From the NCBI GenBank assembly GCA_948567375.1, contig OX419759.1:40142593-40206592 (forward strand): a stretch of DNA of 64,000 nucleotides, written 5' to 3'. The notes below the pieces were generated by a model that worked only from the letters and a program-made list of their open reading frames with translations, was not told where the DNA came from and did not search any database. Each line of letters begins with the position of its first letter. Position 1 is the first letter of the stretch. This document shows positions 10,646 to 52,734 of this stretch, piece by piece. The stretch is from Lunularia cruciata (taxonomy: Eukaryota; Streptophyta; Marchantiopsida; Lunulariales; Lunulariaceae). The position numbers were made by a program, and so were the translations under genes.

Positions 10646-10651
10646 AAAACT

Positions 10652-10666
10652 TAGTCCGGGGGTAAA
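10652..10666 (+). other. Polypurine-tract-like site of element A
   Basis: The string AGTCCGGGGGTAAA directly precedes the TG of the 3' LTR at 10667. Element B has the same arrangement (agtccggggataaa before 52042). This is where plus-strand cDNA priming would occur; it is only partly purine. Confidence 0.5.
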
Positions 10667-11355: not shown

Positions 11356-11356
11356 T

Positions 11357-13313: not shown

Positions 13314-16300
13314 TTTGACAACATTGTATCATACTATTTATAATAAATTGGTAAAATATAGCTCTTTCCTATGGAGATATGGTTTAGAGATGGAAAAATT
13401 TGAAGAGAAGTGTCATTAATGTAGTTCTTTATTGTTTCTTCTTGAACTTCTTGGGCAAGAACCACTCCCAAAAGATGGTAAAGTCACTAATTTTGGCACA
13501 CTATGGCAAAAAGAAGATCCAAAGTCACTTCACATAAGCTAAGTTCCAATTAATTCTTGAAGGTAATGATCCATAAGCTAAGCTCCAATTAATTCTTGAA
13601 GGTAATGATCCAATCACTCCAAGGAAGATACTTCACTACAAATAATACAATTCCAAAGAATATATCCTACTCTTCCCTCAAGGCATAACTACAAAGGTGC
13701 TTTGCATTGGTGGTAAATCTGTGCTTTTCCTATTCTTTGGTAATTTTAACACTATAACTCACTTAAGACCTATAAAGGCATTGCTCCTTCACAATTACCA
13801 AGTGTTAGAGCCTAGCCACAAGTACTAGGGATCACACACAATTATCTACTTGAGTTCTTATTATGAAGTTCCTCACCACTACTCACCATAGAATCATTGC
13901 AAATACTTTGAATCATTTAAAGTGACAAAGAGCTCTTGCTCTTTTAATTTCCTCTCTTAAATGAAAAGAATGAATTATTTATTGTGACAAAGAGCCTTAA
14001 ATAGGTTCTACTTCTCCTAATCTAGGAAATTTGAGAATTGTAGAAGTACTAAGATTTATCAAAACTACAGTTCTTGCATCTAAACTATACAATCAAGATT
14101 TTTATAATCTTTTCCTAATTTGCCAAACTTTACACTTCTAAATACCTAACATGTATCTTTGGAAATCATTTTAATTCTTTCCAAAAAAACTCTATCTTGT
14201 CCTCTTGAAAATTCCCCTTTGAAGATTACAAAACTAAGAAGAAATGTACAACAACAAAGAATCTTCATTTAGGGAAGGATTCTTCATACTGCTCTATTGC
14301 AAAAAAACTTCCTTTGCCTATAGCTTCTCTTGAGAGGTTTTCATTTTTCTCCTTGTTATTTGTAATTTCTTGTACTATTATATCACAAGTTACCTCAAGC
14401 TTCCTATTTGTACATTCTCTTAACTTCAAGGATACTTGCTCTAGTTTAGAATCATCATATACTTGAGCACTAAGAGTTTGAGCTTGAAGTTTGAGCTCAT
14501 AGATCTTTGCCTTGGTGAGTTTACCTATTGCAGCTTCCTTTTGGACTTCTAATATCTGATCCTTATCTTCTCAAACTCTTGAGTAATCCTAGCCATTTCT
14601 TCCTTTGAATGATTATAAGCTCCACTAATTTTGCTAGTAATATCTTCCATAATCTTGGCTCTTATAGTGGTTCTTTTATCTTTCCACTCTTGTCGTTTTT
14701 TCTGTAGGGCCTCAAGCTAGATTACTACTTCTTTGTGGTATTCAGATATATTGAATTCCAAAGTAACAATGGTTTTATTAGCTATTTGTCTACCTACAAG
14801 TGTCTTCTCTTTGTCTCTTTTTTGTAGTTGTTCTTTGTAATCTTGTTGCCTTTGCTTCTCTTCTATTCAAAGAGCTCTCAATCCTCTCTACATTCTTTGG
14901 ACATCTTCTTCGTACATTTCTATTCTTCAATCAATGAGGTGTTATGTCTCTTGACCTTGTGGTTCTCTTGCATCATGGTATTTACTTTTCATGCATTTGT
15001 CTTTGTATAGTTATCTTACCCTTTCTAAGTCTCCTTGCATTTTGGTCACTTTGTACTTGTTTGTGTGCATATGCTTACAAATGAAGTGTAGTCCACTACA
15101 TTGGGCCATTCCTATCTATATTGAGGAAGTAACACATGTAATAACCTAAGAGTTGGTCATTGAATTTATCATGAAACTTAGCACATCCACTACATGTTGT
15201 GCTAAATAACTTCTACAAAGAAACTCTATCCCCTTCTTCTTCTTGGTGCAATCTGAGTTAGGTCTCTCATTGCTTTGCCTTTTACATCCACCTAGTTTTC
15301 ATTTTGAATGTCTCAGCTTTGTCCCACCTGAGCTAAACTTGTAGCCTCTTCAAGTCAAAGGTCTTCTTGATCTTAGTGTTCTTTGACCATTACTATTGCT
15401 TCTTCTTCTTTTCATACTTCTTCTAGTAGAACTAACTCCACTTTCTCTTGATAATCTCCTTCTTCCTCTAAATGAAACTCTGTTCCGTTAAAAGTAAGCT
15501 CTTCTTTTGCCACATTGTCTTTTGTTCTTCATCAATTTCTTCACTCTGAGCTTCTTCTTCATTGGAAGAAACATCCATCACCTGAGGATTTCTTCTTGCT
15601 CTCTTTGGTGGTCTCTCTACATTCTCACTAGTAGAGGGTTGCTTCTGCCTCTTAGGAGGTGGCTATCATTATTACCTCCTTCACTTCTACAAATTCAGCT
15701 GTTGAGAAAAACTTGGCATTTGCATTTTGATGGTTCTAAATTGTGGAGGGTCCTTTGGGTTGAGCCAAAAGTACTCCAATATAAAGTGAGCCAAAACTCC
15801 TCCTCTTATCTTTGCTTAGCAAATTTTCTCCATGTAGAAGTAAATTGCAAATGAAGCCAAGTAAGTAGCTTCACTATCCTCCTCAAGTTCCTAAATCATG
15901 GCTTGTTGATAGAACATGTAGGCCCAATTGATAGGTTCTCCCCTAACTAATTGCTCAAATAATTCTACCTGGTTGATAGTCAAGTAGATATTTTTTATGG
16001 TGTAAACTATCCTTATAATAGATTGAACAAGAAATCTATGAGAAAGGATCCTCATAAATATGAACCTTCCACCCATTACTAATTTATATCTTTTCTACAA
16101 AGGAATCCTAAATTATTGTGTTGAATCTATTTCCATATTTCTAAATTTTGTATCCAAGGTAATTGCCCCTGGAGGTCTTGCATCTATTTCAAGAACCATC
16201 CTCTAGTGTTCCTTTATCTAATTGTATGGATTCCTATGAAGATCCTTAGCTACTCTATCATTTATCCTTTGCATCTCTTAAATGATTATAGGAGAACCCA

Positions 16301-16944
16301 ATTCCTAATTTTAGAGTAGAAACATCACATGCTTACTCTAGAGTAAATCACTCCTAGCTCTCATTGCCCATTTGTTGAATTCTAGAGGATCAAAAAATCA
16401 CCTCAAGGATCTTCTTCATAATTACTTTGCTTTGGTTATATATTGCTAATAAGAGTTCTTCTTTGACAAAGAGAAATATCATTCAAGCACACTTCAAAAT
16501 AGTTACTGCAAAAATATACTAGCACAAGTAAAAACCAATCAATTTGCTATTAATTTTATAGATAGAGATTATTATGTTATTCTACTTAGTGTGCAAGACA
16601 TCTCCAAATATGAAACTCTCCAAGTGGCACCATCAACTTTGGGTGGCAGTTCTTTATCCCTACTAGCGGCATCATATAAATCAATGTATCGTCATTGATT
16701 CCAAAAATCTTCAACTACAAATATCTTTCATACTTGTACTCTTCATACTTTCCACTTCTTTAAACTTGACTTCTTCACGCCTATTACTTCTTTGATGATT
16801 TCTTCTTTGCTTCCAAACAAGCACACAAATGAACTCCAAAGAATACTCATGAAAAAGGTTTCTTATCCTAAACATGAAACTTCTTCAATCAAAAAGTAAT
16901 AAAATGAAAAAAATTACAAATTCTGCAAAAAGGTGTGCACTCCA
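13314..16944 (-). mobile_element. D-family element copy D1, full length with target duplication
   Basis: Complete on the minus strand: starts TGGAGTGCACACCTTTTTGC at 16944 and ends GTTGTCAAA at 13314. A 5-bp direct repeat, aggca, flanks it (13309-13313 and 16945-16949). The length is 3631 bp. There are no LTRs inside and no RT, integrase or transposase motif. Both termini match the C family. A 39-bp tandem pair lies at 13533-13610, near the 3' end. The coding content is a broken minus-strand reading related to the C-family protein. Confidence 0.75.
14480..16090 (-). pseudogene. D-family protein remnant (D1)
   Basis: On the minus strand, 16076-15891 reads VELFEQLVRGEPINWAYMFY, matching FFHKLFKGEPINWVRCFH of C1. 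It is followed by SEATYLASFAIYFYMEK, the counterpart of LPPHYIVPFAAHFYLEL. Next come a basic segment (PPKRARRNPQV near 15570-15610) and an acidic run (SSNEEEAQSEEIDEEQ). Remains of a coiled coil extend to about 14480. Many stops are present. It shows that D and C carry the same protein family. Function unknown. Confidence 0.55.
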
Positions 16945-18295: not shown

Positions 18296-21200
18296 TGTAA
18301 CAACATAGTGTCAAAAAATTGCATTACATCAATAAGAAATAGGTTGTACTTGATAGGATACACTTTAAAAAATGAATAAATACAAAGAAAAGTGCCACAA
18401 ATCTCATTCTTTACTATTCCTTATTTCACCTCTTGGGCAGAAAGCAATCCCAAAAGAGGATAATGTCACCATGAAGGCACATTATAGAAAGATAAAGGAA
18501 GATCACAATCACAATCACAAAGGGTAAATCCAAACTAAACCCTAATAGTGATGATTTAGTACAATATGATGATGACTTTCATACAAAGAATGTTATGAAG
18601 AACCTTGTTCTACCTTTCCCAAAAGACATGCCTTCTTGTGAAAGTTCTTTGCTATAAGTATCAACCTTTGGCCTTGCTTCTATTACATATTCTCAACACT
18701 ACATGTCACTTAAGTCCTATGAAGGCACACCTTTAAGAGAATTGCACCATGATCAAACATACATAGTATTCACCATCACTCATTGCAAAGAATTGAGATT
18801 CCTTTAGGAATTAAGAAAGTGACAAAGAGCTCTCTCTCTCTCTCTTGCCTAATTCACCTTATGCTCCTATTGAATAAGAATGCACTTCAAATGATCAACT
18901 TAAATACCAAAGTAACTTTGGAGTTACAAAAACTAAGAAAACTGAGTAACTTTCATTTCATGATAATTATGAAGAAAACTAACTCCTCAAGTTCCCTTTG
19001 GAAATGTAATAATTCTAACTCCTGGTCTTCACACATTATGGTTCTTTGCCACTTTACATTTCCTATAGTCTTAAAAAAAATTTCTTCTTAATGCACTTAT
19101 TTTCACTTTTCATTTCTACGTTTTGGGTAACCCTAAACTGCCTTTAAAAATCAAGAAACATTGACTTTATTCAAATGTTCATAACTTCTGCTATGCTATA
19201 GACCTTCAATCAAGGCCATCTTGGACTCAATCCAAACTTCTTGCAAAGATTATTTCAACAATCAAATATTACTTGAATAAGACTTGTGAAAGTGATAATT
19301 TGGTCCATTAAATTAACTCTCCCTTCAACTCTAAAACACTTGGGAGTCCTAAAATTTCAAATGCTTATAAGTTTAGCTATAAACCATCAAACTTTGCAAT
19401 GTTGGTATCAATGGAAAGCCCTTGAAAAGATGATTATAATTTAATATAATTCTTCATTTGTAAATTTTACTATAAAGATACTAGCCCCAAAGCAAAAATT
19501 GCAAAATTCCTTTGGGTCAAGATTCTTTGTAATAAAGTCCTTAATGCTTTGGGCATTTGGCCAAAAAATTCCTTCATAGGAGAGGTCTTTGTACTTCCTT
19601 TAGTCTTTGGATTAGAAATCCTTTTCCTTCATCTTTGACCCTATCTTTGTCTTTGGTTCTTTTGATTGGATTTTAGAGTTCTAATACTTTGCTCTTGAGA
19701 CTTTGCATTTCTTGCCCAAATACAAAGACATACCCAAATTACTCCAAAATATACAAATTTCTTCCCAAAACGAGGGAAATTTTTCTCCTTAATTGTAGAA
19801 ACCAAAAGAAAGAAAAGAGATATCCAAAAATTCCATATTTCTAGATACCATACAATGTTCTCTATAACCATCTCTCTCTACAAATAAACTATACAGTGAG
19901 GTTTATAGATGGATTTATCAATTTAAGTCACTTACTTACACTACAAAAGCTAAGTGGCTTTCCTTATTCCTACCTCTTACAAATCTCTTCGAAATGAAAT
20001 CAAGTGGTTCCTTTCTAACTACCTTTTCTATGACACATCAAAGTCTTTAGTTATCAAAGGCAGTCTATATCTCTAATTTTGGTCTCATCTTTGCTCATTG
20101 ATCTACAAAAGCAGCAATAGAAATTGAATTTTAGCCAAAGAGTAGATATGATAGCTCTTTGCTTGCTCAAAGTTTTATCCAAAGTCTTCACCTTTTTAAG
20201 TGCAAGAGGTGATAATAAGTACAATTGAGTATAAGTAAGTGACAATTAATCTTAATTACTTGGGCTATACAAAAGAAGTCACTTCATGAAAGATTGAGGA
20301 AGTGATGAGAAGTTTGCAATCCTTTACTTTTGTCACCATCTGCATGGACTGAATGCTAGACACTTCAAATGCACAACTTAAATAGTTGAGTGCACTTGGT
20401 TATTATACTACAAAACTAACTAATGGTTGTAACTCAACCATCAAAGACTAAACTACTTAAAGTTGTCTAACTAACCATTCTGTTGGTGACAATTTTCTAC
20501 TCTTACTAATGATCCTCTTCTTCTTTATTTGCTATTAGTTATAATCTACATGCTAAGTCTCTTAATTCTAACTTCCAACTTTCTTTAATTTCTTTTGTCA
20601 ATTTCTATTGGTCTTCTACTTATTGAATAGCAACCTTCTACTATCATTTGTTGTAATATTTTTGTGGGTTGCACAGTATTCCAATCCATGAGTGCATTAT
20701 CCATATTCTCAATAATTTTTAATTGGAACATTGCCATCTCTAGCAACTCATGGTACCCATTTCTTTCTGATTTCTTTTTGGTTATTTTGGGGTGTGATTT
20801 GACCTTTCTTATCTTAATGGTTGTCAAGGATTATTCCTACCTAACCACTCTTCTTCCCTCTCCTCCAATTTACTTAGAAAAACTTGCCACACACACAATT
20901 TGGTTTTTATGCTAGCCAACTCCTCTTCTTGTTCCATAAATCACTTATGTGGATCTTCCTTTAAGTCTAATTTGGGCTGCAGTTCTCTTCTCTACTCTTC
21001 CATTGCTTCTAATTCTTGTTCAACACTGAAATGATGCATGTATTTTTGCAATTCTTCTTCTAGGTATCTTCTATGATTGAATTGGTTATATGCTTCATTT
21101 CAAGGTAGTCTTGCTAAGACTTAACAAGCTTAGCATCCAAGACATTCTTCTCTCTTTGGATTTCAATAATCATCTACACTTTCTCCTCATTCTCCTTTCA

Positions 21201-21868: not shown

Positions 21869-21869
21869 C

Positions 21870-21992
21870 TATGGTGCACATCTTTTTGGAAAAATTTGTA
21901 ATTTTGTTTCATTTTAATACTTTTTCACACTATAGTGCACACCTTTTTGCAAAAGTTGTAATTTTGTTTCTTTTTATTACTTTTTGATAGAC
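21870..21992 (+). repeat. Tandem pair of the D-family 5' terminus (61 bp)
   Basis: TATGGTGCACATCTTTTTGG at 21870 and TATAGTGCACACCTTTTTGC at 21931 head two consecutive 61-bp units, both running through GTAATTTTGTTTC. Only the second continues into element D3. Confidence 0.7.
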
Positions 21993-24900
21993 AAGCAAGA
22001 TAGTTTCATGTTTAGAAGAAGAACCTTCTCTCATAAGTTTTTTTTATAGTTCATTAGTATGCCTATTTGAAACTAAAAAATACATCATCCAAGAGAGAAC
22101 AAGTATGAAGAAGTCAAGTCTAGAGAAGGAGTAAGTACAAAGAGTATAAATACAAATAATCTTTGTAGTTGAAGATTTTTGGAATCAATGACCGTGCACT
22201 GATTTAAACAATGCCACCAAGAGGGATGAATAACTGCTGCCAAAATCAGATGGCACCACTTGAAGATTTCACATGTGTAAAGAGTGATATCTCACACAAT
22301 GAAGACAAGTACACAAAAAACCTTGGCTATAAAATTGTAGAATGATTAATTTCCTTTTTTGCCAATATGTTTTTGTGAGTGCTTCAGTGATACTTCTTTT
22401 TGTAGTTGTTGTCTCTTTGTCAAAGAAGAACCCTTGTTAGCAATATAGCCATAGCAAAGAAAAATGAGGAAGATCTCTGAGGTGATCCTTCAATCCTCAA
22501 GAATCAACAAATGTGCAATGAGAGCTAGGAGTGATATACTCCAAAGTAAGCACTTGAAGTTTCTACTCTAGAATTTGGAATTGGATTCTCCCATGGAATT
22601 CAAGAGATGTGGAAAATAATTGAGAAATCAATGAGGATTGTTGTGTGAACCCTTACAATTGGACAAAGGAGCACTAGAATATGGTTCTCAAGGCAGATTC
22701 ATGACCTACAAAGGTGATGACCCTAGATACTAAATTTTGAAGGAAGGGTGGAATTTGACACAATGATCAAGATTCCTTTGTAGAGAAGAGGTCAAAGAAT
22801 AATGGATGAAGATTTTATATTATAAGGATCTTGCTCTTAGATTTCTTGTATAGTCTATTACTAGCCTATTTTTCCCGAAGCAAACTATCTACCTGAATAT
22901 TAATCCAACAATTATTTAAGGGAGAACTGCTTCATGATTAAGGAACTTGAGGAGTATGGTGGAGCTACTTACATGGCTCCATTTGTAATTCAGTTCTATA
23001 TGGAAGTGAATTTTCTAAGTAAAGATGAGAGGAGGAGGTTTGGCTCTCACTTTATATAAGAGGAGTACTTCTTGGCTCAATCAAAAGGACACTCCATGAT
23101 CAAAAATCACCAAGATGAAAATGGCAGTTTCCTCTCAATAGGAAAATTTGTGAGAGTGAAAAAAGTGACATTGGTATCCAACTACAAGAAGAAAAAGCAA
23201 CCCTCTAACAATGCAAACATAGAGGGACCAAAGAGAGCAAGAAGAAATCCTCAAGTGGGGATGTTGAAGAAGCTAAGGATGAAGAAATAGAAGATGATGT
23301 AGTAGAAGAAGATCTTACTTTGTACAAAACCAAGTTGCAACTAGAGGAAAAAAGGCCACAATCAAGAAGAAGAGGAGACAATTACTCTTGTAGAAGAATA
23401 AGAAATAGTGTTCAAAGAACACCAAGATCAAGAAGACCTTTGACTAGAAGAGCCTACAAGTTCAACTCAAGTGAGACCAAGCAAGGAAACTCAAGATGAG
23501 GACCAGGTAGATATGGAAGGCAAAATAGAGGAGACCACACTTGCATTGCACCAACAAAAAGAAGGAAGACAAAGTCTCTTCACATAAGCAATTTCAACAC
23601 CACCTTTAGTGGATGTGGCAGCTTTCCTAGTAAATTCAGTTAGATTATGTTCTTGTAGATGATACTCTCTTATAGAGACAAGTGGCTTGATGCAATGAAC
23701 TACACTTCATTAGTAAAATGCATGCACACAAATGAGTATCTAGTGAAAGTAGAGATGGGCAAGGAAAAGGAAAGCATGGAGAAGGTGAAAAACTTATACA
23801 AGGAAGAGTGTTAGAGAGGGAACACCCTATTATAGAAGACTTGAAGAGGGAGAAAGCCTTAGTAGAAGATATCAAGAGAAAGAGAATCAGAAGCTATAGG
23901 AGGAACTAAGTGCTCTCCAAACTATGAGTAAACAATAGAAGGATTGTTACAAAGTAGAAGTTCAGACCAAAGTTAATCTCATTAGTAAGTTACAACAGGA
24001 CCTGTAGCAAGAAAAGGCAAGAAGTATACTCAAGAATTTATCTTAGAGGAATACAAGCAGGGAATCAGCATAAGGCTTGAGGCCTTGCAAAATGAACTTC
24101 AAGAGAGAAAGATAAAAAAATCGCTGTAAGAGCCAAGATGATGAAAGTAATTACCAATGAAATAAGGGATGCTAATAATCATTCACAGGAAGGAATGGTT
24201 AGGATTACTCTAGAGTTAAGAAAAGATTAGGGATCAAATGTTAGAACTCCATGAGGAAGTTGCAATAGGCAAACTCACCAAAAATAGACCCTTGAGCTAA
24301 AACTTAAAGCCTAGACTCTTAATGCTCCAATATATGATGATCCCAAACAAGAGAAAGTATCCTTGAAGTTAGGAGGACATACAAATCTGAAGCTTTAGGA
24401 AACTTGTGATACAATAGTACCAGAAATCATAGATTACAAGGAGAGAACTGAAAACCTCATTAGTAAAGCTATAGGTGAAGGTAGTTCTTTGTAATAGAGT
24501 AGTATGAAGAAGTAATAAGGATCCTTCACTGAATGAAGATTCTTTGTGGTTGAAAATTTCTTCCTAATTACATAATATTTGAGTTGGATTCCAAAGAAGA
24601 CAAGATAGAGTTTTTTTGGAGAGACTAAAATGCTTTCCCAAGACATGTATTAGTTATTCAACAATGTACATAGTAGAATATTAGGATCAGATTGGACAAT
24701 ATAATCTCAATTGTATAGTCTAAATGCAAGAAGTGTAGATTTGATAGATTTTAGCACTTTTGCAGCCATGAGATTTCCTAGGTTAGGAGTGGCATAGTCT
24801 GTTTAAGACTTTTTTTCATTGTAAATATTCTTTTAGTCTATATAAGACAATAAGGTGAAAGAGAGAGAGCTCTTTGTCACTTTTGCTGAACTCCAAGTAT

Positions 24901-25458
24901 TGGTAGTGATCATTTGATGAGTTATGGTGAGTAACTTTGTTGTAGGAACTCAAGAAGTTGAGTGTGTGTGATCACTACTACTTGTGGCTAGGATCCTTGG
25001 TAATTTTGCAGGAATGGAGCAATACCTTGATGGTTCTTTAGTGAGATGTAGTGTTGAAAGTACCATGGAATTGAAAAGCAAAATTTACCACCAACACAAA
25101 GAAACTTTGTAGTTATGCTTTCTAGGAAGAGTATAACACATTCTTTGGATTTTATTCTTTGTAATGAGGTAGCCTCTTTGGAGTGACTAAATCATCACCT
25201 TTACAAATTAGTTTAAATTAGTTTAAAATTTAGCTTATGTGAGATTGATTTTGGATATATTTTTGCTAAAGTGAGTTATAGTTGATGACTCTACCTTCTT
25301 TTAGGAGTTGTTCCCGCCCAAGAGGTTAAATAGGAAAAAATAAAGAACAACATAAGTGATACTTTCTCTTCAAATTTATCCATTTCCAAACCACATCTCC
25401 ATGGGAATGAGCTATTTCTTATTGATTTATTGCAAAATATATGACATTGGGTATGCCA
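21931..25458 (+). mobile_element. D-family element copy D3, plus strand
   Basis: Plus-strand copy aligned with inverted D1 over its whole length. The leader matches (GTAGTTGAAGATTTTTGGAA near 22163), as do the coding region and the 3' tail, including TCCATTTCCAAACCACATCT near 25380 and CTATTTCTTATTGAT near 25412. The 3' end, TTGGGTATGCCA at about 25458, aligns with TGGGTTGTCACA of C1. No target duplication is seen (cacac before, ttggt after). With D2 it forms a head-to-head inverted pair. Confidence 0.7.
22480..24480 (+). pseudogene. D-family protein remnant (D3)
   Basis: Plus-strand broken reading: YGGATYMAPFVIQFYMEVNF and LSKDERRRFGSHF (22950-23060), then GSFLSIGKFVRVKKVTLV and GPKRARRNPQVG (23120-23265). 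An acidic segment (EEIEDDVVEEDLTLYK) and coiled-coil remains reach to about 24480. Motif order equals that in C1: aromatic/PF..FY domain, basic patch, acidic run, coiled coil. Numerous stops and frameshifts. Confidence 0.55.
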
Positions 25459-27000
25459 TTGGTGGAAGAAACTAATGTGCAAAGAACACCTTTTCATCTT
25501 TTGACAATAGCTTCATGCCACAATAGAAATGACTCACAAAGGGAATAAAGTGTTTTTGGTCCCTTCTTTATAAATGTCTCATACATCTTCTTTATTTTAG
25601 CCCAATGAATGTTCTCTCTTGTGAAGACAAGCTCAAAGAACACCGCTTGACTAATTGAAAGGTTAGTTGTCCTCTAGACTCAAAACATAACAGCTCTTAT
25701 GATGACTTGCTTCTTTGATCCAATATGCATTAACTAGAAGGCCATTGTTGTTAGCAAAATCAAGTATTTATTTTCTTCAGATTGTGCATGGTCAACAAAC
25801 AATGCCTCCAACTTCAACATCATGTCTTTATTTTCTTTATACTATGTGTTGAGAATGTGTCCTCTTGTTGTGCCATCATCTTCCTCTAAAAATTGCTGCC
25901 CAATCTGTTGTGCCATCATCTTCCTCCAAGACTTGCTGCCACTGGTCCTAAGTCCAATTGGTAGGATTTCCACAAAGAGTATCATATCCTCAATAATTCC
26001 CTTGCACAATCTCTTGCACAATCTCAATTGAGATGTAGCTATGTAACAAAAAGCTCAATTGCAATTACTAAAGATACTCTAGCCACAAAGCTATATCAAA
26101 ATTCTCCACCATGGGTGCCTTGAGATTCATTCCTTCCATGCCAGTCTTTCCTCCTCTATAAGATACAACTTATTTAAAAAAGGATTTAAGAAGGTTGTTT
26201 AAATTTCATTGTATTTCTCAATTTTTAGTAAAATAAATCGATATTTTAATTAATTATTATTTTAGGTATAAATATATAAATGGTTGAAGCTTTGTTGTTT
26301 GGAATTGTTAGTGTTTGAACCTTTTGAGATGATGGAAGAATTTGCTATTTTGGTTTTGCAAGTCCTTAGGAAAAATATTGGATATAGATTGGTATCATAA
26401 GAAAAAGCAAGAAATGAGTGGTTTTGGTTTTCTAGGCATCCACCAGCTAATTTGGGGTTTTCCACCTCTATGGCTATCCTCAAGTCTTTTTTGATATTAA
26501 ATTCATGCAGTTACTATGGTAACAACATGTGTTTTTATGATAACAAGGTGCTCCTCTTTATTTGAATACTCATTAGATGCTTTGATTATTGTTAGTTTTG
26601 TAGGTGCTATGATGTCATTCTTTGTGGCAACCACATGATTTTGAACTTCATATCAAACCATACACACCACTAGGCAACCCGTTGATTTAGTATACAAAAA
26701 AGGTCATGTCTTACATGGTCTACTTTGAATTAAGTCTAGAACTCAAGATCCTCTTTTTGGATTCAGTTACAAATAAATGGTTTACATTACAGAGAAGACC
26801 AAGCCTAGGGCTTCCCTCATCTTATCTATCAATTTTTTTGCAACAACATTTGATTCTTCACATACTACTTTGTTAAACTCTATCTCAACAACTAAGCAAC
26901 TGAACTGAAGCAATCCTATTATGCACTCTCCTAGAGTAAAAATATAATGAATGAAATTAGCCTTTTTTATAAGGGAACAATAGTATACACCATCTTCATT
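25459..27000. other. Unrecognised, possibly another C/D-like N-terminal region on the minus strand
   Basis: Minus-strand translation around 25500-26100 has fragments such as KREHSLG and DIYKEGTKNTLFPL in a layout resembling the C/D N-terminal domain, but too broken to assign. A 40-bp tandem pair (TGTGCCATCATCTTCCTC units) spans 25866-25945. Nothing recognised from 26160 to 27000. Confidence 0.25.
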
Positions 27001-36912: not shown

Positions 36913-39026
36913 TGTGGTACCCAAAATTTTTTGGGTAGAAATTAGAGTAAAATTAGTAGAAGGTTAATTTGCTTTTGTAAGGACCTACAATCACAAGATT
37001 AGCACAATGCAAACAACGCAAAGGAGGTGAAGGAGGTTAGATTACAATGGTAGAAGCCCAAGTAAGTCTGCAAAAAATCCACTTGGATGATGAGAGAGAG
37101 AATCTGCATCCACAATTTCAAGGAATACATTACTTGTCCAATTTGGTATGTGACGTGCTTGTCTAATTTTAGGAATAGTTGTAGTACTATAAGAAGGAGC
37201 ATCTCAAGGTACAAAACAAATTGTAGGTGGTGCGGATGATGCAAATGCATCACAAGGAGTTAGAAGGCAAGCTCTATACATCTAGAGTGAAGTCAAAGAA
37301 CATAGAGTAGAATGTGAGACATGTAAGAGATCAGTTAAAGATGTGCAAGGGAGTTACAATCAAAGATGCAAGTGTCTAGAGAGGCAAAAGTAGAAGCTCA
37401 AGGAACAAAAGGAAAAATTAGTGAAGATAAAAGACAAGCTGGATGCAACTTAGAATGACCTTGCTCAATAATGTAGCAAAGACAAAGTGCAAGTAGTAGA
37501 TATCATAGTATTGAAGGCGGATGTAGTCATGCAAGAGTGGGAGATGACAATGAAATTCAAATTAAGGTTGAAAGAAGAGTATAATTTAATTTCTCACTTT
37601 AAAGAGATGGAGTCCAGCTTAGCCAAGCAAGAAGTGTGCATAGTAGTGCTGATTGTGAAGCATCATGACAAAGTGGAGCAGTTGTAGAATCAATTGGCAA
37701 AAGGACATCAATGGAGTGTAGCAAGTCAAAGTTAGCATAAGGAGGAAATCAGACTACATATGTCTGATTAGCAGCCCAATGCTTCAAAACTGTGTTGAGT
37801 ATAGAGATGGATGCCAAATTGAAGGAATCCTATCTTCATGAGCTTCAATTGCAAGTATAGGAGACACGTAGAAAGAAGGCAAAGGATGTAGATATGAATA
37901 AATTGTTAATTGATTTTAAGAAAAGAGACTAGATAGGAAGGTAAGAAAAGTAGCTGATAATCTTTGTATTAGATTAGACTTGGTAAAGCAAGAAGTAGAT
38001 AGTATATTGAATCTATTAGCACATCATGTTGAACACCAACCCAAATCTTTTGACTTTGGCATGCAAGTTAACTCAGATAACTTGTTTAAAGTAATTGAGG
38101 ATGGTATTGAGTGGGAAAGCATATAATTAGACTACTTATGATGTTTGCAGCAATCCAAACTAAAGGTGGAATAGAAGGCAGAAGGCATAGAGTCAATTCT
38201 TAACTTCCCAAGGACATAGAGAGTTATAGAACTATTACATTTACTTGTAATTAATGTTGGTTCAAAGTTGAGTGAAGGAAGAGAAAAAGTGAAGTGAAGT
38301 AAGTAGAGTCAAATCTGATTAAATAGTAGTAATAGATCCAAAGTGCTAGTTTTGTAGGAAGAGTTGCTTCATATCTATGGAACCAATTGAAGTAGTTGAA
38401 GTAGTTAGTAGTTTAAGTAGTTTTTGTAAATTTTGAGTGCTCGAGCTACTTAAACCTTACATTCAAAGTGTTTTGTATTTAACAAGAGCAAAAGATGAAT
38501 AAGGCAAAGTACTATTGAAGTGCTCATTGTTTTTCTTTATTTTGATTGTCAATTGTGTCTTTATTTGTGAATGCCTGAAGAATTTTGATGTACAAGTAAT
38601 GGAGTGTTAGATGTTGGATTTTTCATCTCTAAATTCCATTTTGTGTTTTTGATCTTACGTAGAAGACTTGCAAACCAATGCCTTGATGGATCTTGAGAAT
38701 TATAGTGTTGTCACTATTTAGGATTTATAGGCAAATCAAGATGCCAATGTGAACTAACTTGAAATAGGGAAGTTGTGCCTTTGGTGGAGAGGTGGAATAC
38801 AATTCCAAGCAAAGTCACTTCATGACAAAGTAGACATCATTGTATCAACTAAATCATCACAATTGAAGTTAATTTTCATTGGAACTGAATAATTGTGACT
38901 TTGAGTGACAATATTATTTCTAGAATTCACTTTTCAAGAGATAATTGTGCTCTTTTTGGTGTTATTTCTGCCCAAGATTTTAAAGACATGATCCGTATGA
39001 ACTGTTAAGTAAATTTAACCTTGTCA
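36913..39026 (+). mobile_element. C-family element copy C2, internally deleted and decayed
   Basis: Starts TGTGGTACCCAAAATTTTTT at 36913 and ends TTGTCA at about 39026, matching the C1 termini. The 3' third aligns well with C1 (tccattttgtgtttttgatctt, gcaatgccttgatgg, gaagttgtgcctttggtgga). The coiled-coil end is readable as ETRRKKAKDVDMNKLLIDF against ETRRRQAKDTNMNALLISL. It is 2.1 kb long, so about 1.7 kb is missing, mainly the N-terminal coding part. No target duplication is evident (ttaat before, atcac after), and the host element E lost sequence at this point. Confidence 0.7.
37261..38170 (+). pseudogene. C-family coiled-coil remnant (C2)
   Basis: Plus-strand helical, charged reading with stops: KADVVMQEWEMTMKFKLRL and KEEYNLISHFKEMESSLAKQ (37487-37687), then the segment matching C1's ETRRRQAKD region (37855-37930) and RLDLVKQEV (37970-38000). 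The N-terminal GEPINW domain is not present. Confidence 0.5.
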
Positions 39027-40343
39027 ATCACATTGTGATGTGACTTTTTGGGATGCTATTTGATGATAAAAGCAAATTTTTGTAGGAGGAGCATCCAACA
39101 AGCAAGTTGTCCCGCATGACATGGTTTTTTGATAATGTACTTGAGAATTTATGATCAACATGAAATAGGGAATTGCTGCCCATGAGATAGTGGTGCAATT
39201 TTGAATCGTAGAGATCATGCCAAGACATTCCTGCTCTGTGCTAGAATACATATCTTTTTGCTAAACTAAGCTAATGACTAGTATAGTAGATGGGATGTTC
39301 CCATTGTTGGTCATCATAGTATGCCAAATAGTGCACATGGCCATGTTAGAGGTTTCTATGAAGACATGAAAGTTCAATTCCCAATTGAGAGCTATGAGAA
39401 TTGGGTGGTAGCTTATTTTGTTTCAACGTCTCAAAGGCTATCATGCATTGGCTAGTCAACAAGAACTCACTAGTGTTATGTAGTAGGCTAGTGAGGGTCA
39501 AAGAAATCTTGGCATACATGTGGACATACCATTGGTAATATCTTGTATAGCCTAGAAAATACCTGATATCATGTATTATGTTTTGTACAAGCAATTGTAA
39601 AATGATTTGGACTTTCTTTGGGTTGATCATGATGCCATTTTCATAGATAAGGTGGCCCAAGAGAGGTCCACACAAGACAAATAAATATTTATGGAGATCT
39701 AGTGAAATCCTAACTAACTTACACATATGCAAAATGGTCCCTAGTACTTGGATGTGATCAGGATGGGAACTATGTGCACACATGTCATCAAGGTATACTT
39801 TGATGTCTCTTCTTCATTGAAAAAGGAATTCATCATGTACCATTGAAGCATTTCAAGAACATTTTTTAATCTGAAGGCATAACTTGGTAGACATAAGCAC
39901 CCCACTCTATGACAAAAGTGGTTCTATATTGATCCTCTAGAGCATTGGAAATTTGATTTTTGTTCAAATAGCCATCTAGGAATGAGAATCATTGGCTATG
40001 GGCCACCTTGTCTAACGATGTATTGGTGGACGGAAAGGAGAAAGGGGCTAGGATGGTTTGTGATTTCAACTTGCAAAATTCAACACAAATTTGAACCTTT
40101 CTTGTATCTTCTTTGGCACCACTAACATTGGGGAGGCCCATTCAGTCTCTATATGGGATAAATGAACCTACACTTGAGTACCTACACTTGAGTTTGTCCA
40201 ACTCTTCCTATACCTTTTGAGAGTAGGTGGGATTCAATCTGTATGGTTTGGACCCGATTGGTATGGCATCTGGTTGTAGCAATATATGGTGCTGACATGT
40301 TTGTGTGTCCATGCCCATGGGTTCTATGTAGTCATAAGCAAAC
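39027..40343 (-). pseudogene. Reverse transcriptase and RNase H of element E
   Basis: From 40343 leftward: FAYDYIEPMGM, QHHILLQPDAIPIGSKPYRL, NPTYSQKV, VQICVEFCKLKSQTILAP, FLDGYLNKNQISNALED (near 39968-39990), then the YLDD active site at 39784-39795 in KVYLDDMCAHSSHPDHI. After this come RISLDLHKYLFVLCGPLLGH, VRYFLGYTRYYQWYVHMYAK-type sequence, and the RNase H end STEQECLGMISTIQN with KKSHHNV just before C2. Stops and frameshifts occur, but most RT motifs remain. The YLDD motif itself is intact. Confidence 0.85.
40339..40343. repeat. Target-site duplication of C1, left copy
   Basis: The bases caaac occur directly before the element and again at 44132-44136 directly after it. A 5-bp duplication is typical of integrase-mediated insertion. 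Confidence 0.75.
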
Positions 40344-40726
40344 TGTGGTGCCCACATTTTTTGTTTTTTTCAAAATAAAGAAGAAGAAGTGTACAAAGAA
40401 GTCGGATTGCGCCTGTATGGCCAAAGAAGGCAAAGAAAAGAGTCTTTGGGATGAACCCAAAGTAAAGTGACTTCGGTTCATAAGGCAAAGTACTCAGAAA
40501 TGCCCTATCAGCATACAACCCAAAGTAAAATGTCTTCGTAATGGGGGGAGCTCAACCCGAGGCAAAGACAGTCTAACAACCTTTCGTCGGGGTGAGAAAT
40601 TCAAGAAAGGATCGTTCAAAACCGGCGGCCCATACGCACGAAGGTTGATTGACAGTGATAGGTGCATGTAGGAGGTGTGATTTCTTGATAGAAACTCGAA
40701 GTGAAGAAAAAAAAGAAGTGCAACTC

Positions 40727-40735
40727 TATAAAAAT
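40727..40735 (+). promoter_or_regulatory. TATA box of the C family
   Basis: TATAAAAAT in CTCTATAAAAATCAAA, 19 bases before the first ATG (40754). Copy C3 has the same box and spacing class at 6832-6824 on its strand. Confidence 0.5.
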
Positions 40736-40753
40736 CAAACTCGCAACGACAAA

Positions 40754-41014
40754 ATGTCAAGTAATTTTCCTTTGCCATTGAGAAGTCGTCTTGTAGGTCA
40801 TCGTGGGAAGGGAAATAGAGTTGGAATCGTGGTAGTGCGTAAGGGAGAAGTTGCAAGAGTGAAATCGAGAGATAGTGAGAAGGCAGAAGAGATGGGAGGA
40901 GGAAAGAAGAACTCTGAATTCGTAGTGAGAAATCATGCAATTTGGAGGTTAGATGTAATCGCTAGGATCAAAGTCTTGAGCCAACTTTGGATCACTTTTC
41001 TAGCATGGAACTGA
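40754..41014 (+). CDS. C-family ORF1, small basic protein
   Basis: An 86-codon frame starting MSSNFPLPLRSRLVGHRGKG, rich in Lys/Arg and Gly (EEMGGGKKNSEF), and ending VLSQLWITFLAWN then TGA. The start is chosen because C3 conserves MSSNFPLPLRS at the same position; an upstream in-frame ATG at 40649 precedes the TATA box and is unlikely. In C3 the stop is TAG after the same AWN. The next frame (41018) is in phase, three bases further. It may be a separate small protein or the start of one long protein read through the stop. No known domain recognised. Confidence 0.5.
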   Translation: MSSNFPLPLRSRLVGHRGKGNRVGIVVVRKGEVARVKSRDSEKAEEMGGGKKNSEFVVRNHAIWRLDVIARIKVLSQLWITFLAWN

Positions 41015-41017
41015 AAT

Positions 41018-43329
41018 GTGAGCTTTCCAGGTTTCATGACAGAAATCATCGAGAGCAAGTGTCTCAATGGACCCAAGGAAGAAGGGAAGAGAGGGAATCC
41101 GGCTTGCTGGACAGAGTCAGATTGGAGACTTGTACTCGGGAAGGAAGCAGGCTCGGAGCAAGGGGCCACGTTCTTGGGAAAGGGAGAGATAGCTCAAGAA
41201 ACCCAAGAGGTGAGAGATGCTTTCTTGTCAAAGCGGACAAAGAATGGGTACAAGGTTGAGAGCTACAAAGACCTTGTGAAGAGAGGAATTGTGAGTGCAC
41301 TGATGGCCATCTTGAAGCCGGAGAGAACCACTTATGTGATGAAACACCAGGCAGTGTTCTTTCACAAGCTATTCAAAGGAGAACCGATCAATTGGGTGAG
41401 GTGTTTCCACAGGAGAACGAGGCAGATGGTGTGGAATTTGCAAGATAAGTTGCCTCCACACTACATTGTGCCATTTGCAGCACATTTCTACCTCGAGCTA
41501 AATTTGCTAAACTTGGCGGAGCAAACTCGGATGGTGTCGCACTTCCATCCTAATTTGCAAAAGGAGGTCGATGTCGAGGATTTAGGATTATTGCAAATCA
41601 GGAGCACCAACGACTACTACATGAAGACAGAGAAGAACATAGAGTTCGTAGTGAGTTCCCCGAATACAAAGAAGAGGAGTCGGCAAGGCAAAGCCAAAGA
41701 CACAAAGAAACCTCAAAAGACACGGAGAGGCAACCCGAGGCGAGGTATGGTGGTGATCAAGTTGGAGGATGAAGACTCGGAAGGTGATGCCAAGCTCAAG
41801 ACTGAAGACTCGGAACACAAGGAGGAGCCTGAACTAACGCTGCAAAGTGGAGATACAAGTAGCGATAGCGATGAAGGAGGAGAAATGACATCGGTGCCGG
41901 CGGCTGAAGAAATGAAGAAGAAGAAGTGCAGGCAGAAATTGAAGCCGAAGATAATACACAGTTGGAAGACGAAGTAACTATGCCCAAAGAGAAGAAGATC
42001 GCAGTGCAAAGAGGAGTTTTCTTGAGATGTAAGGCAAAGTGTGAAGCGGGGCCAAGTAAGGCAAAAGAAGAAGTAACTGAAAGCTCGGGAAGCAAGGCGT
42101 CAATTCTGATACAAAGACTGCAAAGAAAAAGGCGAGTATCAGATGAACATGAAGTATGGAGAGAAGTGGCCACGCAAGAAGAAGTAACCCCGAGCAATGG
42201 AGTCGAGTACCTGCGGGATGTGGTATGTCCTCTACTGGTAAAGATGGAGTACAAGAAGAAGGAGATGCAGTCAACTTGTCCGGAGGTAAAGACTGTATTG
42301 CAGGTGTTGTCCATATTAGAAGAAGAGAACTCGGAGTTGAAGAAGAGTATAACCCGAGGTGGGGAGGAAAAGGAAGTACTGCAATCGGAGGCAGTGGTGA
42401 GAAGTCAGGTAATTGAAGACCTGAAGAGAGAAGTAAATTATTGAGAGGATCTTGTGAAGAAGAGTGACATAGCAAGGGAGAGACAAGTAGCTGAGTATGA
42501 GATCTTGAAGCAACAGCTTGTTGATTCAAGAGTAGAGGTAATCTATGCTATGGTGAGAGTAGCTGCAAAGGATCAGGAGCTCAATAGGGTGATGGAGAGT
42601 GTCGAGGAGAAGAAGCAACTCTGGCAACGAGAGTTAGCGGCACAATATAGAGAAGAAGACCGATTACAAGAGTTACTTTGTAATCAGGAGGAGAAGGTTG
42701 TCCAGAAGGAGAAGGAGAAGGAGTTGGTGAAAGCCAAGTTTGAGGTGGAGTTGGCAATGTACCGAGAGGATTGGCTCACAGATCGGGAACATGAGAGAAA
42801 GACAAGATTGGAGCCATTGAAGGATATAGTCCTCCAAATGAATGCAATGTTAAGTACAAAGGCCAGCATTCGGATTGAGGAGACAAGGCTGTAGGAGTTT
42901 AAGTTGTTGGTGCAAGAGACAAGGCGAAGACAAGCAAAGGATACAAATATGAATGCCTTGTTAATTAGTCTCAAAACTCGTGTAGACAAAAAGATCTTAG
43001 AGGTAGAGGATAACATTCCGATTAGATTAGACTTAGTGAAAATAGAGATAAAAAAGCTTCGGAAAGATGTTAGAGCAAAACCCTAAGTAGATAACATAGG
43101 AGTACAAATGTCTTTTGAATTACCATTGGAGACATTGGAGAAGAGTGGGTTGAGAGATGAAGAGTTAGATAGATTACCCACTAGTGGAATTTTAGATCAG
43201 GAAAGAGAATTGTTGGAATTGGTAGAAAAGGTAGAAGATATGAAACCCGAGGACAGAGTATTAGGAAGTAAGATTACTTCGGGTTCAGGTTTGAAAGCCA
43301 AGGAAGAAGTAGACATCGGATTGGAGTAG
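41018..43329 (+). pseudogene. C-family ORF2, large coiled-coil protein (best copy)
   Basis: Protein of roughly 770 residues if breaks are ignored. It begins at 41018 with GTG in the place of C3's ATG (SFPGFMTEIIESKC). The N-terminal domain (41220-41560) has KHQAVFFHKLFKGEPINWV and LPPHYIVPFAAHFYLELNLL. A basic patch like a nuclear signal follows (KKRSRQGKAKDTKKPQKTRR, about 41665-41730). Next is an acidic Ser/Asp region (SGDTSSDSDEGGEM), a second basic part with RCKAKCEAGPSKAKEE, then a long coiled coil (42300-43080: NRVMESVEEKKQLWQREL, MYREDWLTDREHERK) and an acidic tail (ELPLETLEKSGL). Breaks: one-base slip near 41920, TGA at 42442-42444, TAG at 42892-42894, TAA at 43084-43086. No enzyme motif. 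The N-terminal part may be distantly related to the putative plant transposon protein families, a guess to be tested. Confidence 0.65.
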
Positions 43330-44131
43330 AAACAGTTTTGAGATTTGAAGAGGTAGATATGAAGAGGTACATTGTCATTTTGGATCTGCAGGTTAGAAAA
43401 GTTGTTGTAGAACGGTATAGTTGTTAGAACTGTTGATTGCTTCACTACTCAAGAGTGGCATTCGCAGAGAAATGTTGTTCAATGCTCATAATTTTTGAGA
43501 ATAGATAAAGCAAAGTGCTACAAAGCAGTGCTCATCGCTTGAGCTTGATTCCAAGTATCAATGTTGTACTTGTGTTTGTGAGTGTGTGAAGAAATTCAAA
43601 GTGCAAGTCAGAGTGTTTGTTGGATGTTGGATTCCACAGCCTTGATCTTCATTCTGTGTGTTTTTTTTTTGATCTTGAGTGAAGCACAATCAAAGCAATG
43701 CCTTGACAGATCTGAGAGGAATTGTTGTGTTGGTAGTATTCTGCATTTGTGAGTGCAGTGCGAGGTTGATGTGAAGCAATTTAGAATGAGGAAGTTGTGC
43801 CTTCAGTGGAAGGGTGGAACACAATTTTGAGGCAAAGTTGTTTTGCAATGAAGTGCCATTTTCGGGAGAGCCTGAATCATCACAATCAAGATTGTTTGGA
43901 AAGAATTGATGGAGTTGTGATTAAGGAGTGTGAAATTCGTGACAAGACTGTGAGTCAGTGCTTGTTACTCTCTTCTAGGTGTGGTTTCTACCTGAGAGAT
44001 TAAAGACACAACTAAGAAGAACTGCAATTGTTACTTTGACTTTGTATTTAGACATTTCTGACTCGTATCTCTGCGGAAACAAACTTTACTTACCCGATTA
44101 CCGCAAAAGTAATATTTACTGGGTTGTCACA
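43330..44131 (+). other. 3' untranslated part of C1
   Basis: No open frame of note. It contains a T-tract at about 43662 and conserved stretches shared with C2 and the D copies (AATGCCTTGA, GAAGTTGTGCCTT). The end, ATTACCGCAAAAGTAATAT then GGGTTGTCACA, is the best-conserved terminus of the C/D family. Confidence 0.55.
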
Positions 44132-44136
44132 CAAAC

Positions 44137-45305: not shown

Positions 45306-45935
45306 TCTAACACCCATTTGTGCATGTATGTGCTATTATGATATTTAGTTTGGTATCATAAGTACCTGAGAGATGTTATTTACATAAAGACATAAAGGAT
45401 TATTCTACATTAGTCATGATTAGCTAAAGTTAGTCATAGCTAAGATAGAGAGGACCTTACTTTAGAGGAAATGTAGAAGATGAGCACCACTATCTTGGAT
45501 TATAATGTATTGACTTGGTATTATTACTAAGTGTTTGAGGAAAGAGTTGAGAACTCTTGGACCCACAAGCATTTTTGCATCAAATTCTTTTATAGTCCAA
45601 GGATAGCCCATGTGAGGAATCCTTGACTTAGTGGTTGGCTGAAGTGAAGACCACATGCTTAGGAGAATATTCCCATCAGTATGGATATTCCTTTAGACTT
45701 TAGACTTTAGACTTTATTTGACTTTTAGCCAAGTAACTTGAGTTACTCTAGTAATAAGTAACTTTAGTGCAAAATTTTTCATAAGTATATAAAATAGGGG
45801 TGAAGATGTACTCATCATCCTTTCATTTGCAACTATCTATCTCTCATTGAGTTATTTAATGAGCAATGGTTTGAGTCTTGGAGTGTTAGCCTTAGAGGAG
45901 TATGATGGAGTTGTGGTTCCTTGCCTTTTTAGTCC
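45306..45935 (+). repeat. First 5' LTR of element B, 3' truncated
   Basis: Begins TCTAACACCCATTTG (family start TGTAACACCC) and runs to TTTTTAGTCC, where the second LTR starts. It lacks the final 130 bases or so. The TATA box reads TATATAAAA at 45786-45794. It contains a (TTTAGACTT)-type triple repeat near 45695-45715. Confidence 0.8.
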
Positions 45936-46689
45936 TATAACATCCATTTTTGTATGTATGTGCTATTGTGATATTTAGTTTGGTACTACAAGAAATTGAA
46001 AGATATTATTTATATAGAGATATAGGATGGTTTTACATTAGTTATGATTAGCTAAAGTTAGTCATAGCTAAGATAGAGAGGACCTTAATTTAGAGAAAGT
46101 TGAAAAGAGTAGCACCAAAATTTTGGATTGGAGTGTATTGACTTGGTATTATTCTTAGGTGTTTGGCTTTGAGGAAAGAGTTGAGAACTCTTGGACCCAC
46201 AAGCCATTTTGATTTGGATTCTTCTATAGTCCAAGGATAGCTCATGTGAAGGAATCCTTGACTTAGTGGTTGGATCAAGATAAGACCATATGCTTAGGGG
46301 AAAATTCTCATGAGGATGGATATTCCTTTAGACTTTAGACTTTAGACTTTAGATTTTATTTGAGTAACTTGAGTTACTCTAGTAATTAGTAACTTTGGGA
46401 CATAACTATTTCATAAGTATATAAACTAGGGATGAGGAGGTACTCATCATCCTTTCATTTGCAACTCTCTCTCATTGAGTTCTCTTGTGAGTAATGTCTT
46501 GAGTCTTGGAGTATTAGCTTTGGTGGAATATGATGGAGTTGGGGTTCATTGCCTTGTTAGTCCATGGTGCACTACCATAATAACCATAAGGGGTTCATCC
46601 TGAGCAAGAAACATGCTGGCTTATAATCCATGGTTTAATACTATAAGAGCTATTGGAGGTTTGTCCTAAATGAGAGACAAGCCGGTTCA
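45936..46689 (+). repeat. Second 5' LTR of element B, complete
   Basis: Starts TATAACATCC (G to A in the TG start) and ends GCCGGTTCA at 46689. It carries a 50-60 bp internal addition near 46620-46680 relative to the other LTRs. TATATAAAC lies at 46418-46426. The TTTAGACTT microrepeat has four units near 46330. Confidence 0.8.
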
Positions 46690-46695
46690 TATTTT

Positions 46696-46713
46696 TGGTT
46701 CTATTGTTGGGAC
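46696..46713 (+). other. Primer-binding-site-like sequence, decayed tRNA-Asp type
   Basis: TGGTTCTATTGTTGGGAC lies six bases after the LTR end. It fits the tRNA-Asp site used by many gypsy elements (TGGCGCCGTTGCCGGGG) if several C and G are read as decayed to T and A. Confidence 0.4.
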
Positions 46714-46739
46714 CTCTATACAAGGCAAGATAATGTTCC

Positions 46740-48001
46740 ACGTGCAATAATTTAGTACACAGAAGTACGTTATGAGAGCTCACTTGAAGAGAACATTAAG
46801 GGAGTAGAGGGCTGAACTTTTGTGAGAGAACTTGGACCCATTTGTATACCTTGTAGTTTATTATGATGTTTTTGAGGTGACATTGTACATACTATACACA
46901 TGAGAGGATTTGGAAAGATTGTGTGAGGTGGATTGTAGATTTTAGAGAATATGGTGATTTTAGGCAAAACCTCAAGTTAAAGATCTTGATTTGAAATTCT
47001 TATAATAGATAGCTTGGATTATCTCCCATGTATTTCACTCAAAATTATTCCAAGGGTTGCTACATGCATTGAGCTAGAATTTTTGGAAGGTGGTAAGGTA
47101 AACTATTCCCGCAAACTACACACACTTTGGAATTTTATATAGAGTTTACCATTTCTTTATTTTTCATTATATCTTTTTGAAACTTTTGTAGAAAATTAAG
47201 TGCATAGTATCTAACCTTTCTACCTAAGAATTAGGGATAGATTGTTCTGGCACAAAAATTTATGAGCTTTTAAGAGGGGGTGGTTTTTAGATCAAATCTA
47301 AAATATGTGTGCTGAATAGAAAGATGCCTAGGCCAAATGGCTAGATGAAAAGATCTGAAATTTTTCAGGGAAGATGCCATGGGGTTTTGATCTAGTGTGC
47401 AAAATTTTAAAGGAATATGACCTACTAATTGAGAGAATGGTAAAGAAGGGTCAATTTTGGAGATTTGAGATCTCATGCATGAGGAGTATGAGAACAACCA
47501 AAAGCATGTTTGAGTGTTTAGACTCATCTTCAAGGGTCACCAAGGATCACCAAGAGTGTATGTTGAGGCTATGCAAGGTTTCTCAAGGTTTGAGTTGATG
47601 ATTTGGGGAAAAAAGAGTTTAGTATAGAATTTGGAGAGAGTGTTGAGAGGATCCAAAAACATAAACTACTTGGAAGAAAGAGTGATTCTAAGTGCTTCTT
47701 ATGTGGAGAGAAGAGACATAAGGCAAGTTCATATCCATTGACCTTTAAGAGCAAGAGATTGATGGTAAGGAAAGGCTTACTTGACTTGGGATTGCATGTT
47801 GGACTTTCATCACCAAAATTGGAAAGGAGTAGATCTAAGACCAAGGAGTTGTGTGAGGTTTGTGGAGTAGAAGGACTTCCAAAAGGATATGATTGTAGTG
47901 GAATAACAACACTATTGAAAAATTTGGTGAAACATCTTGGAGAGAGTCTTAGCACAACTATAAAGAAACTACCACCTTCATCAACTAGTTCTCAAGTTTA
48001 G
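46740..48001 (+). pseudogene. Leader and extra ORF upstream of gag in element B
   Basis: After an unreadable leader, 47374-47600 reads MPWGFDLVCKILKEYDLLIE with stops, and 47603-48001 is open: KKEFSIEFGESVERIQ, then CFLCGEKRHKASSYP. The last is a CX2CX4HX4 zinc-knuckle pattern whose fourth ligand is Tyr (TAT), one G-to-A change from Cys. Then ELCEVCGVEGLPKGYDCSG gives three or four further Cys, and LLKNLVKHLGESLSTTIKKL is helical. The frame ends at TAG 47999-48001, well before the gag start at 48171. Extra ORFs before gag are known from Tat/Ogre-type gypsy elements; whether this is homologous is unknown. A conserves the first part (3600-4137). Confidence 0.5.
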
Positions 48002-48170
48002 TGATAGAGATAATCTTCAACTTGAAAATCTTGGAGTAACCTGAAAATTTTATGTTCTCTAGGGTGGATTACTCTCAAATGATGTTAGTCATGTATATAT
48101 TCTATTAGTTATAGAGTGAGAGAAAAGAAAAAAAGATTGAGAGAAAAGAGAAAGACAGTGAGGGACTTAG

Positions 48171-49053
48171 ATGGGGAAATTTCCAATTTTCTTTGGCAAG
48201 GATGGAGAAGATATGGAGGCCTTTGTGAGAAACTCCAAGAGAGCTTGCTTGGGAAAAAAAGAGAGGATGAATAATGAGTGGGTCTCATTATCATCAGATA
48301 TCTTTGAGGATGTATCCCTTACATGGTATGAGTTAGAATACCAAAAGAGGGAGAGGAGAAATTGGCAAGAAGAGTCTTAGAGAGTTTGACTTCAATACTC
48401 ATTGAGAAAATTTTTCCAATGAGAGTTATGAGAGATTGATGAGTGACGTTACCTTCCTCAAACAAGGAGATGGAGAGAAAGTGAGAGTCTATGTGGAAAG
48501 AGTGGAGAAGTTAAAGTCCAAGTTTTGCATAGTGTTGAAAAAGAGTGTGGATGATATGGAGATTACTATGATTGGTGTAGGAGCCACTCTCACCAAGAAT
48601 TTTGTGGGAGGGTTGAGACCTCAAATAAGAAGCAAGGTGAGATATGAGAAATCTTCTTCCAAGGTTCAAGCTATCAAAATTACAATACATATGGAGGAGA
48701 GTTTGGAAGGGAATGAGAGTGATTTGGTGATGAAAGAGGTTGTGCATATTCCTCAAGGCTATAAGTTTGGTGGAACTTTTGATACTTTGGTGTTAAGGGT
48801 TGCACCACAAGTAGTAGTTGCTCCGATTCTTGCACTTATACCAAAAGTTCAACTTCAAACCATCATAGAATCACTTGCAGATTTCAAGATCAATGTAGTG
48901 CAGCTATGAAAGAAGAGAGAGATGGATTTGAATGTAGGGAGAGGATCTAGGAGTTATAGAAACTATCCAGATAGAGGAGGCTAACCAAACAACAATTTCA
49001 ATGATAAAAATTGTTTTTGTTGTGGAGGAAGAGGTCATCTCTAAAGGGATTGC
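48171..49053 (+). pseudogene. Gag of element B with zinc knuckle
   Basis: Starts MGKFPIFFGKDGEDMEAFVR, the usual retrotransposon gag opening (PxFxGxDxEDxxxW), with WVSLSSDIFEDVSLTWYELE. After a stop near 48378 and a frame change it continues 48436-48909 with FLKQGDGEKVRVYVERVEKL and KNFVGGLRPQIRSKVRYEK. A TGA at 48907-48909 ends that frame. A CX2CX4HX4C zinc knuckle (residues CFCCGGRGHL then RDC) lies at 49012-49053, with a TAA at 49042-49044 inside it. Gag would coat the RNA in particles. This is the only gag of the A/B family in the window. Confidence 0.8.
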
Positions 49054-51990: not shown

Positions 51991-52041
51991 TAGAGAGACC
52001 TTCACTCCAAGGATGAAGTGAAATCTTAGTCCGGGGATAAA

Positions 52042-52729: not shown

Positions 52730-52734
52730 TAGAC

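Follow-up and report, generated by a model that had tools for sequence, protein, structure and literature searches.

Plant solo LTRs stand as single copies with TG...CA ends, a 5-bp duplication and promoter- and terminator-like motifs inside, and the elements described here, which form two related groups (C and D), resemble them in ends, duplication and single state, with putative motifs of both kinds in some copies. They differ in that the C and D elements are ~3.6-3.8 kb long with a selected gene, and in that no C/D pair is present in the window (the whole 64-kb stretch of DNA that was analysed). The LARDs of barley, said to have been described by Kalendar in 2004, reportedly have very long LTRs and no polymerase, and consist of LTR pairs around a non-coding interior. 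The great length and the missing polymerase are shared with C and D; however, C and D have a coding gene, C1, D1 and D2 contain no direct-repeat pair, and there is no LTR-like pair in the 64-kb window.

A gene inside an LTR is known from an animal retrovirus, mouse mammary tumour virus (MMTV), whose LTR holds the accessory gene sag with its own promoter (PMC9412291); the likeness to C and D is one of gene position and not of protein comparison. The usual site of extra genes in plant LTR retrotransposons is the interval separating pol from the 3' LTR (PMC7264820), and in sunflower extra ORFs are grouped as before or after gag-pol (PMC11728184). Examples are an Athila ORF with Transposase_32 (PF20167), the Tekay 5' aORF and Grande gene23, and nuclear signals are reported for one Athila and one Tekay accessory protein (PMC11728184, PMC7264820). 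As retrotransposon accessory proteins with no assigned role these would be comparable to the C protein, but as described in those sources they are encoded beside gag-pol rather than within an LTR, and C1 has no PF20167 match. The LTRs of the pine families described in PMC3762812 measure ~0.35-1.5 kb. Among the papers listed, judged by titles and abstract openings and by passages of the papers cited here, we recognised none on a gene inside a plant LTR.

Insertion, ends and target duplications

C1 is a complete element of 3788 bp (40344..44131, plus strand) with the termini TGTGGTG...TGTCACA, starting with TGTGGTGCCCACA at 40344 and ending with GTTGTCACA at 44131. It is flanked by the target duplication CAAAC, on the left at 40339..40343 and on the right at 44132..44136 (no strand), and interrupts a minus-strand Ty3/gypsy pol. 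In an empty-site test, we joined the C1 flanks with 0-8 bases removed (nine trials) and scored each product against the pol of another gypsy copy, A1. Removal of 5 bases gave the top score of 85.9 bits (71.2-81.3 bits in the remaining eight trials), in a match to residues 173-356 of the A1 pol that spanned the junction at ~residue 200. This optimum backs the 5-bp duplication and the C1 ends independently of the repeat itself. C1 is a true insertion, and the start, end and CAAAC flanks assigned to it in the initial annotation are all correct. Among the integrase motifs of LTR ends compiled by Benachenhou et al. (PMC3601003), TGTGGYG of the gypsy clade CsRN1 agrees with the 5' end of C1, but the 3' end of C1 does not follow that clade. 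The first 13 bases of C1 (40344-40356) form an inverted repeat, TGTGG TGC CCACA, which is partly kept in C2 and D1.

Both ends could be placed in three of the six copies in the window, C1, D1 and D2. D1 is complete (13314..16944, minus strand) and, read on that strand, runs from TGGAGTGCACACC at 16944 to GTTGTCAAA at 13314, with AGGCA on either side as the initial annotation had it. D2 (21931..25460, plus strand) has both ends, the 3' one placed to within a few bases, and no 5-base duplication was found around it. The 5-bp duplications proposed earlier are therefore exact in two of the three testable copies, C1 and D1, and fail in D2. At one fixed boundary an exact 5-base match has a random probability of ~0.0013, a value that may flatter D1, since its ends may have been picked with the repeat in view. 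The TG/CA ends, also proposed for the family, are exact on both sides in C1 only: D1 has TG...AA and D2 begins with TA. Where a single end is available, it is TG in C2 and CA in D3.

We compared the two ends of each placed copy with each other. The 200-bp ends of C1, D1 and D2 held no direct repeats beyond those of shuffled sequences, and the scores of the 450-bp ends were equalled by 24, 48 and 27 of 300 shuffles, respectively. Weak inverted matches between the end regions of C1 (3/300 shuffles as high) and D2 (1/300) fell at unrelated places, and D1 had none. The idea that the unit contains short LTRs or inverted repeats was rejected, with direct scores within the shuffled range and no consistent inverted match. 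None of the six copies is paired in an LTR-like manner within the 64-kb window, and a scan for tRNA primer sites of two types, with at most 2 mismatches allowed, found none adjoining a C/D 3' end. The absence of an LTR pair, of reverse transcriptase and of integrase, noted earlier, was upheld: C1, D1 and D2 have no direct-repeat pair, no polymerase domain was found, and no integrase family was matched in Pfam by the pieces of C1 and C2. Integration of the retroviral type, as first suggested, is supported by the TG...CA ends of C1, the duplications of C1 and D1, and the lack of long inverted repeats and of a polymerase domain.

Copies, kinship and the selected gene

The remaining copies are incomplete. 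C2 (4138..7220, minus strand) sits in gypsy A1 and has an intact 5' end and a lost 3' end; it was recognised by its identity to C1 (77.8% over 3082 columns). Its 5' end, TGTGGTACCTACA, was fixed by the junction with A1 as compared with the relative A2, position 7221 aligning to 49280. C3 (37793..39111, plus strand) is 5'-truncated with an approximate 3' limit, and was delimited by a profile match at 37793-39021 (E 4.5e-39) and a C-terminal protein piece. D1 and D2 are 70.4% identical over 3686 columns. D3 seems to be split by D2: its 3' part (18300..18870, minus strand; profile E 8.6e-38) ends with GTTGTTACA near 18300, and a probable N-terminal part with an uncertain 5' end lies on the far side of D2 (25457..26018, minus strand), where the profile match is weak (E 2.5e-4) and the protein pieces score no higher than the best shuffle. 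The copy count leaves out weak rows of nhmmer, among them 35917-36015 and 19705-19815. Two candidate 5' ends, TGTGGTTGCCACA at 26635 for D3 and TGTGGTACCCAAA at 36913 for C3, were rejected as having no exact matching duplication. At the 5' end of D2 the first ~59 bp are tandemly repeated (21867-21985, 88% identity), and by eye its flanks resemble each other over ~30 bp.

In profile searches, D detects the 3' part of C1 (E 3.9e-20), and C detects that of D2 (E 5.4e-13). Weak DNA similarity is present in the 3' 600 bp and at the 5' terminus, where C and D begin alike (TGTGGTGCCCACA, TGTGGTACCTACA, TGGAGTGCACACC and TATAGTGCACACC). For the N-part of the C1 protein, the match scores 48.5 bits in D1 and 37.0 bits in D2, at about the equivalent position in the element, against a best score of 25.8 bits in 300 shuffled elements. 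Judged by these alignments, C and D are one superfamily; the kinship claimed for them is borne out by the reciprocal profile matches and by N-part protein matches above those of the shuffles. The further claim that all copies carry the same large protein held for C1 and C2. D1 and D2 retain degraded pieces of it, C3 has the C-terminal piece only, and D3 has only weak N-terminal pieces, the best of which (25.8 bits) equals the best shuffle.

The C1 gene (41018..43329, plus strand), defined by open frames and by Ka/Ks against C2, has ~770 codons and is interrupted by three in-frame stops and by one change of frame around 41900-41980. Its start at 41018 is GTG in C1 and ATG in C2. In-frame Ka/Ks between C1 and C2 was 0.115 (218 codons), 0.155 (173), 0.166 (149) and 0.217 (140), rising to 0.424 in the frame-disturbed middle segment (78 codons). 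Out of frame, nine of ten values lay within 0.56-1.52, and the tenth, from the disturbed segment, was 0.237. Two stretches of gypsy pol compared between A1 and A2 gave in-frame values of 0.49 and 0.56, and out-of-frame ones of 0.53-0.76. The C gene was maintained by purifying selection while the C1 and C2 lineages diverged. The D1-D2 comparison has no codon phase, so selection is demonstrated for C only; D1 and D2 look old and decayed. The first 150 bp of C1 and C2 are 89% identical, and each 150-bp window of the gene is lower (67-84%).

The C protein has three parts: an N-part of ~210 residues, a linker that is both basic and acidic, and a charged, coil-like stretch with little proline and glycine (0.06 and 0.01 in the two pieces of that stretch). 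No relatives were found among 5.8 billion proteins at E up to 0.01 or up to 1, in a database where plant retrotransposon proteins are present. Predicted proteomes often omit such retrotransposon genes. Pfam searches with the C1 and C2 pieces gave no family at curated score. A likeness of the N-part of C1 to Transposase_32, the Athila accessory protein (PF20167), was considered; that family was unlisted at E up to 10, in a search whose HMMER filters drop most matches above ~0.1, so that a remote relation may still exist. The PDB gave no relative, its one row being at chance level (E 0.31). Viral contigs and genome contigs, collections that hold few plants, yielded no protein relatives; the 3'-block DNA pattern described below was absent from both, and the 5'-end pattern from the viral contigs. 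Structure prediction of the N-part had a mean pLDDT of 36. On the strength of the basic linker and the coil-like part, the protein may perhaps be a nuclear or RNA-handling accessory factor.

Putative signals within the element and a proposed mode of propagation

A putative promoter motif, TATAAAA, lies in C1 at 40727..40733 (plus strand), element position 384, and recurs at the equivalent place in C2 (389), D1 (385) and D2 (398); the probability of its chance occurrence in a 60-bp D1-like stretch is 0.016. D1 has a second TATAAAA at 2839, and the candidate 5' part of D3 has none. In D1 and D2, AATAAA is found ~120 bp upstream of the 3' end, marking a probable poly(A) region there; the motif is absent near the 3' end of C1. 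The most conserved 3' DNA block in the five-copy alignment (43970..44006, plus strand; consensus CTCTTTTNGGAGTGGTTTCTGCCCAAGAGGTTAAAGA) lies 125-161 bp before the C1 3' end. A stem-loop in this block gained no support as a conserved RNA: double-sided change was seen in one of eight pairs, and likewise in 209 of 500 shuffles.

Since the promoter motif and the probable poly(A) region are inside the ends, an element copied simply as RNA would be deprived of its two termini, which an LTR cycle or DNA transposition would preserve. On this inference a solo copy of a giant LTR, the first of the initial annotation's two models, fits better than a unit mobilised in trans. The probable identity of C1 and the related copies is that of solo LTRs, ~3.6-3.8 kb long, left by a plant LTR retrotransposon that has a whole protein gene inside its LTR. 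Such an LTR would have its promoter ~390 bp from the 5' end, then the accessory gene of ~770 residues in the would-be U3/R part, and a poly(A) region ~120 bp from the 3' end. The full element, with its own or a borrowed gag-pol, would replicate by the LTR cycle and insert via an integrase of retroviral type, which would account for the TG...CA ends and the 5-bp duplications. The two long repeats would then recombine, losing the interior and leaving one LTR in which the gene is retained. In general, long LTRs tend to recombine more readily.

Several observations count against solo LTRs. No copy in the window (0/6) is paired around a primer site and pol, exact TG...CA ends are limited to C1, and D2 is without a duplication. 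The signals are also uneven, with no TATAAAA in the D3 candidate, an extra one in D1, no AATAAA in C1 and no codon phase between D1 and D2. Relative to full elements, solo LTRs are reported to be fewer in conifers, although solos prevail in some pine families (PMC7602945); as far as that source goes, finding six single copies out of six would count somewhat against solo LTRs if the host were a conifer.

These old single elements, with LTR-like ends and a gene maintained by selection, suggest that a plant retrotransposon retained a gene within its terminal repeats. A full element would then have two copies of the gene, and one would survive in every solo LTR, so that deletion of the interior would spare a gene where otherwise a bare promoter would remain. 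The strong selection on the C gene and the recognisable homologue in the diverged D family indicate that the gene mattered to the element. Annotators would also have cause to look again at long single repeats left unclassified in large plant genomes.

Among the alternatives, the one that survives best, though we think it unlikely, is a separate class in which the 3.6-3.8 kb unit is itself mobile, was never paired with a second LTR, and integrates as linear DNA with the help of an LTR-retrotransposon integrase supplied in trans. All six copies are single, no tRNA primer site of the two kinds sought adjoins a C/D 3' end, and the promoter motif, gene and 3' region all lie within the unit. Inspection by eye shows no purine tract as the 5' flank of C1, D1 or D2, and the purine run preceding C2 belongs to gypsy A1, its sister A2 being identical there. 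The difficulty is in the copying: no mechanism is known by which an RNA started internally would reproduce such a unit complete with its two ends. The gypsy family of the window has different ends (TGTAACACCC...) and is thus not an obvious helper. As a class of plant mobile element, a self-contained promoter-gene-terminator cassette of ~3.7 kb with retroviral-type ends and 5-bp duplications, never LTR-paired, would need a new way of copying its ends as well as a borrowed integrase; we give it a small chance.

More doubtful still is a DNA transposon of the cut-and-paste type, with duplications of 5 bp, inverted ends that are very short (TGTG...CACA) and a single gene encoding its transposase. 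Single units, purifying selection on the gene and the TGTG/CACA ends of C1 would all suit it, but the inverted ends amount to 4 bp in C1 and to nothing in D1 (TGG...AAA), the further inverted matches described above are weak and misplaced, and no transposase or integrase family was matched in Pfam by the pieces of C1 and C2, whose gene is broken; D entered these searches only in pieces. Least probable are solo LTRs whose gene runs opposite to the retrotransposon, as the antisense extra genes of Grande, RIRE2 and Retand do, with the difference that here it would be inside the LTR: the C1 end in reverse complement, TGTGACAACCC, does resemble by eye the LTR start of the window's gypsy family, but the shared TATAAAA and both AATAAA motifs are on the gene strand, and the opposite strand has no TATA motif in C1 or C2 and four each in D1 and D2, at no place shared with C.

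Surrounding repeats

The window is land-plant repeat DNA with 38% G+C. Among the best 120 of 178 matches of a gypsy pol piece at 7863-8729 are a Marchantia paleacea relative, with 73% identity over 69% of the query, and relatives in Riccia, Adiantum and Taxus. One Ty3/gypsy family is present in two copies, ~2669-11357 and 45938-52731, its LTR starting with TGTAACACCC after a G-rich tract. The first lacks ~1.6 kb next to C2, and the second has an extra LTR copy (45308-45935) directly before its 5' LTR. An open frame at 57953-58702, non-LTR-like by eye, has a weak RVT_1 match (E 0.0037) below the curated score, and one at 11512-11976 appears by eye to be of the copia RNase H type, with no such Pfam match; beside the latter, 11357-11552 recurs inverted at 2259-2454. 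At 56109-56326, a 72-bp unit is present in three head-to-tail copies, two of them identical.
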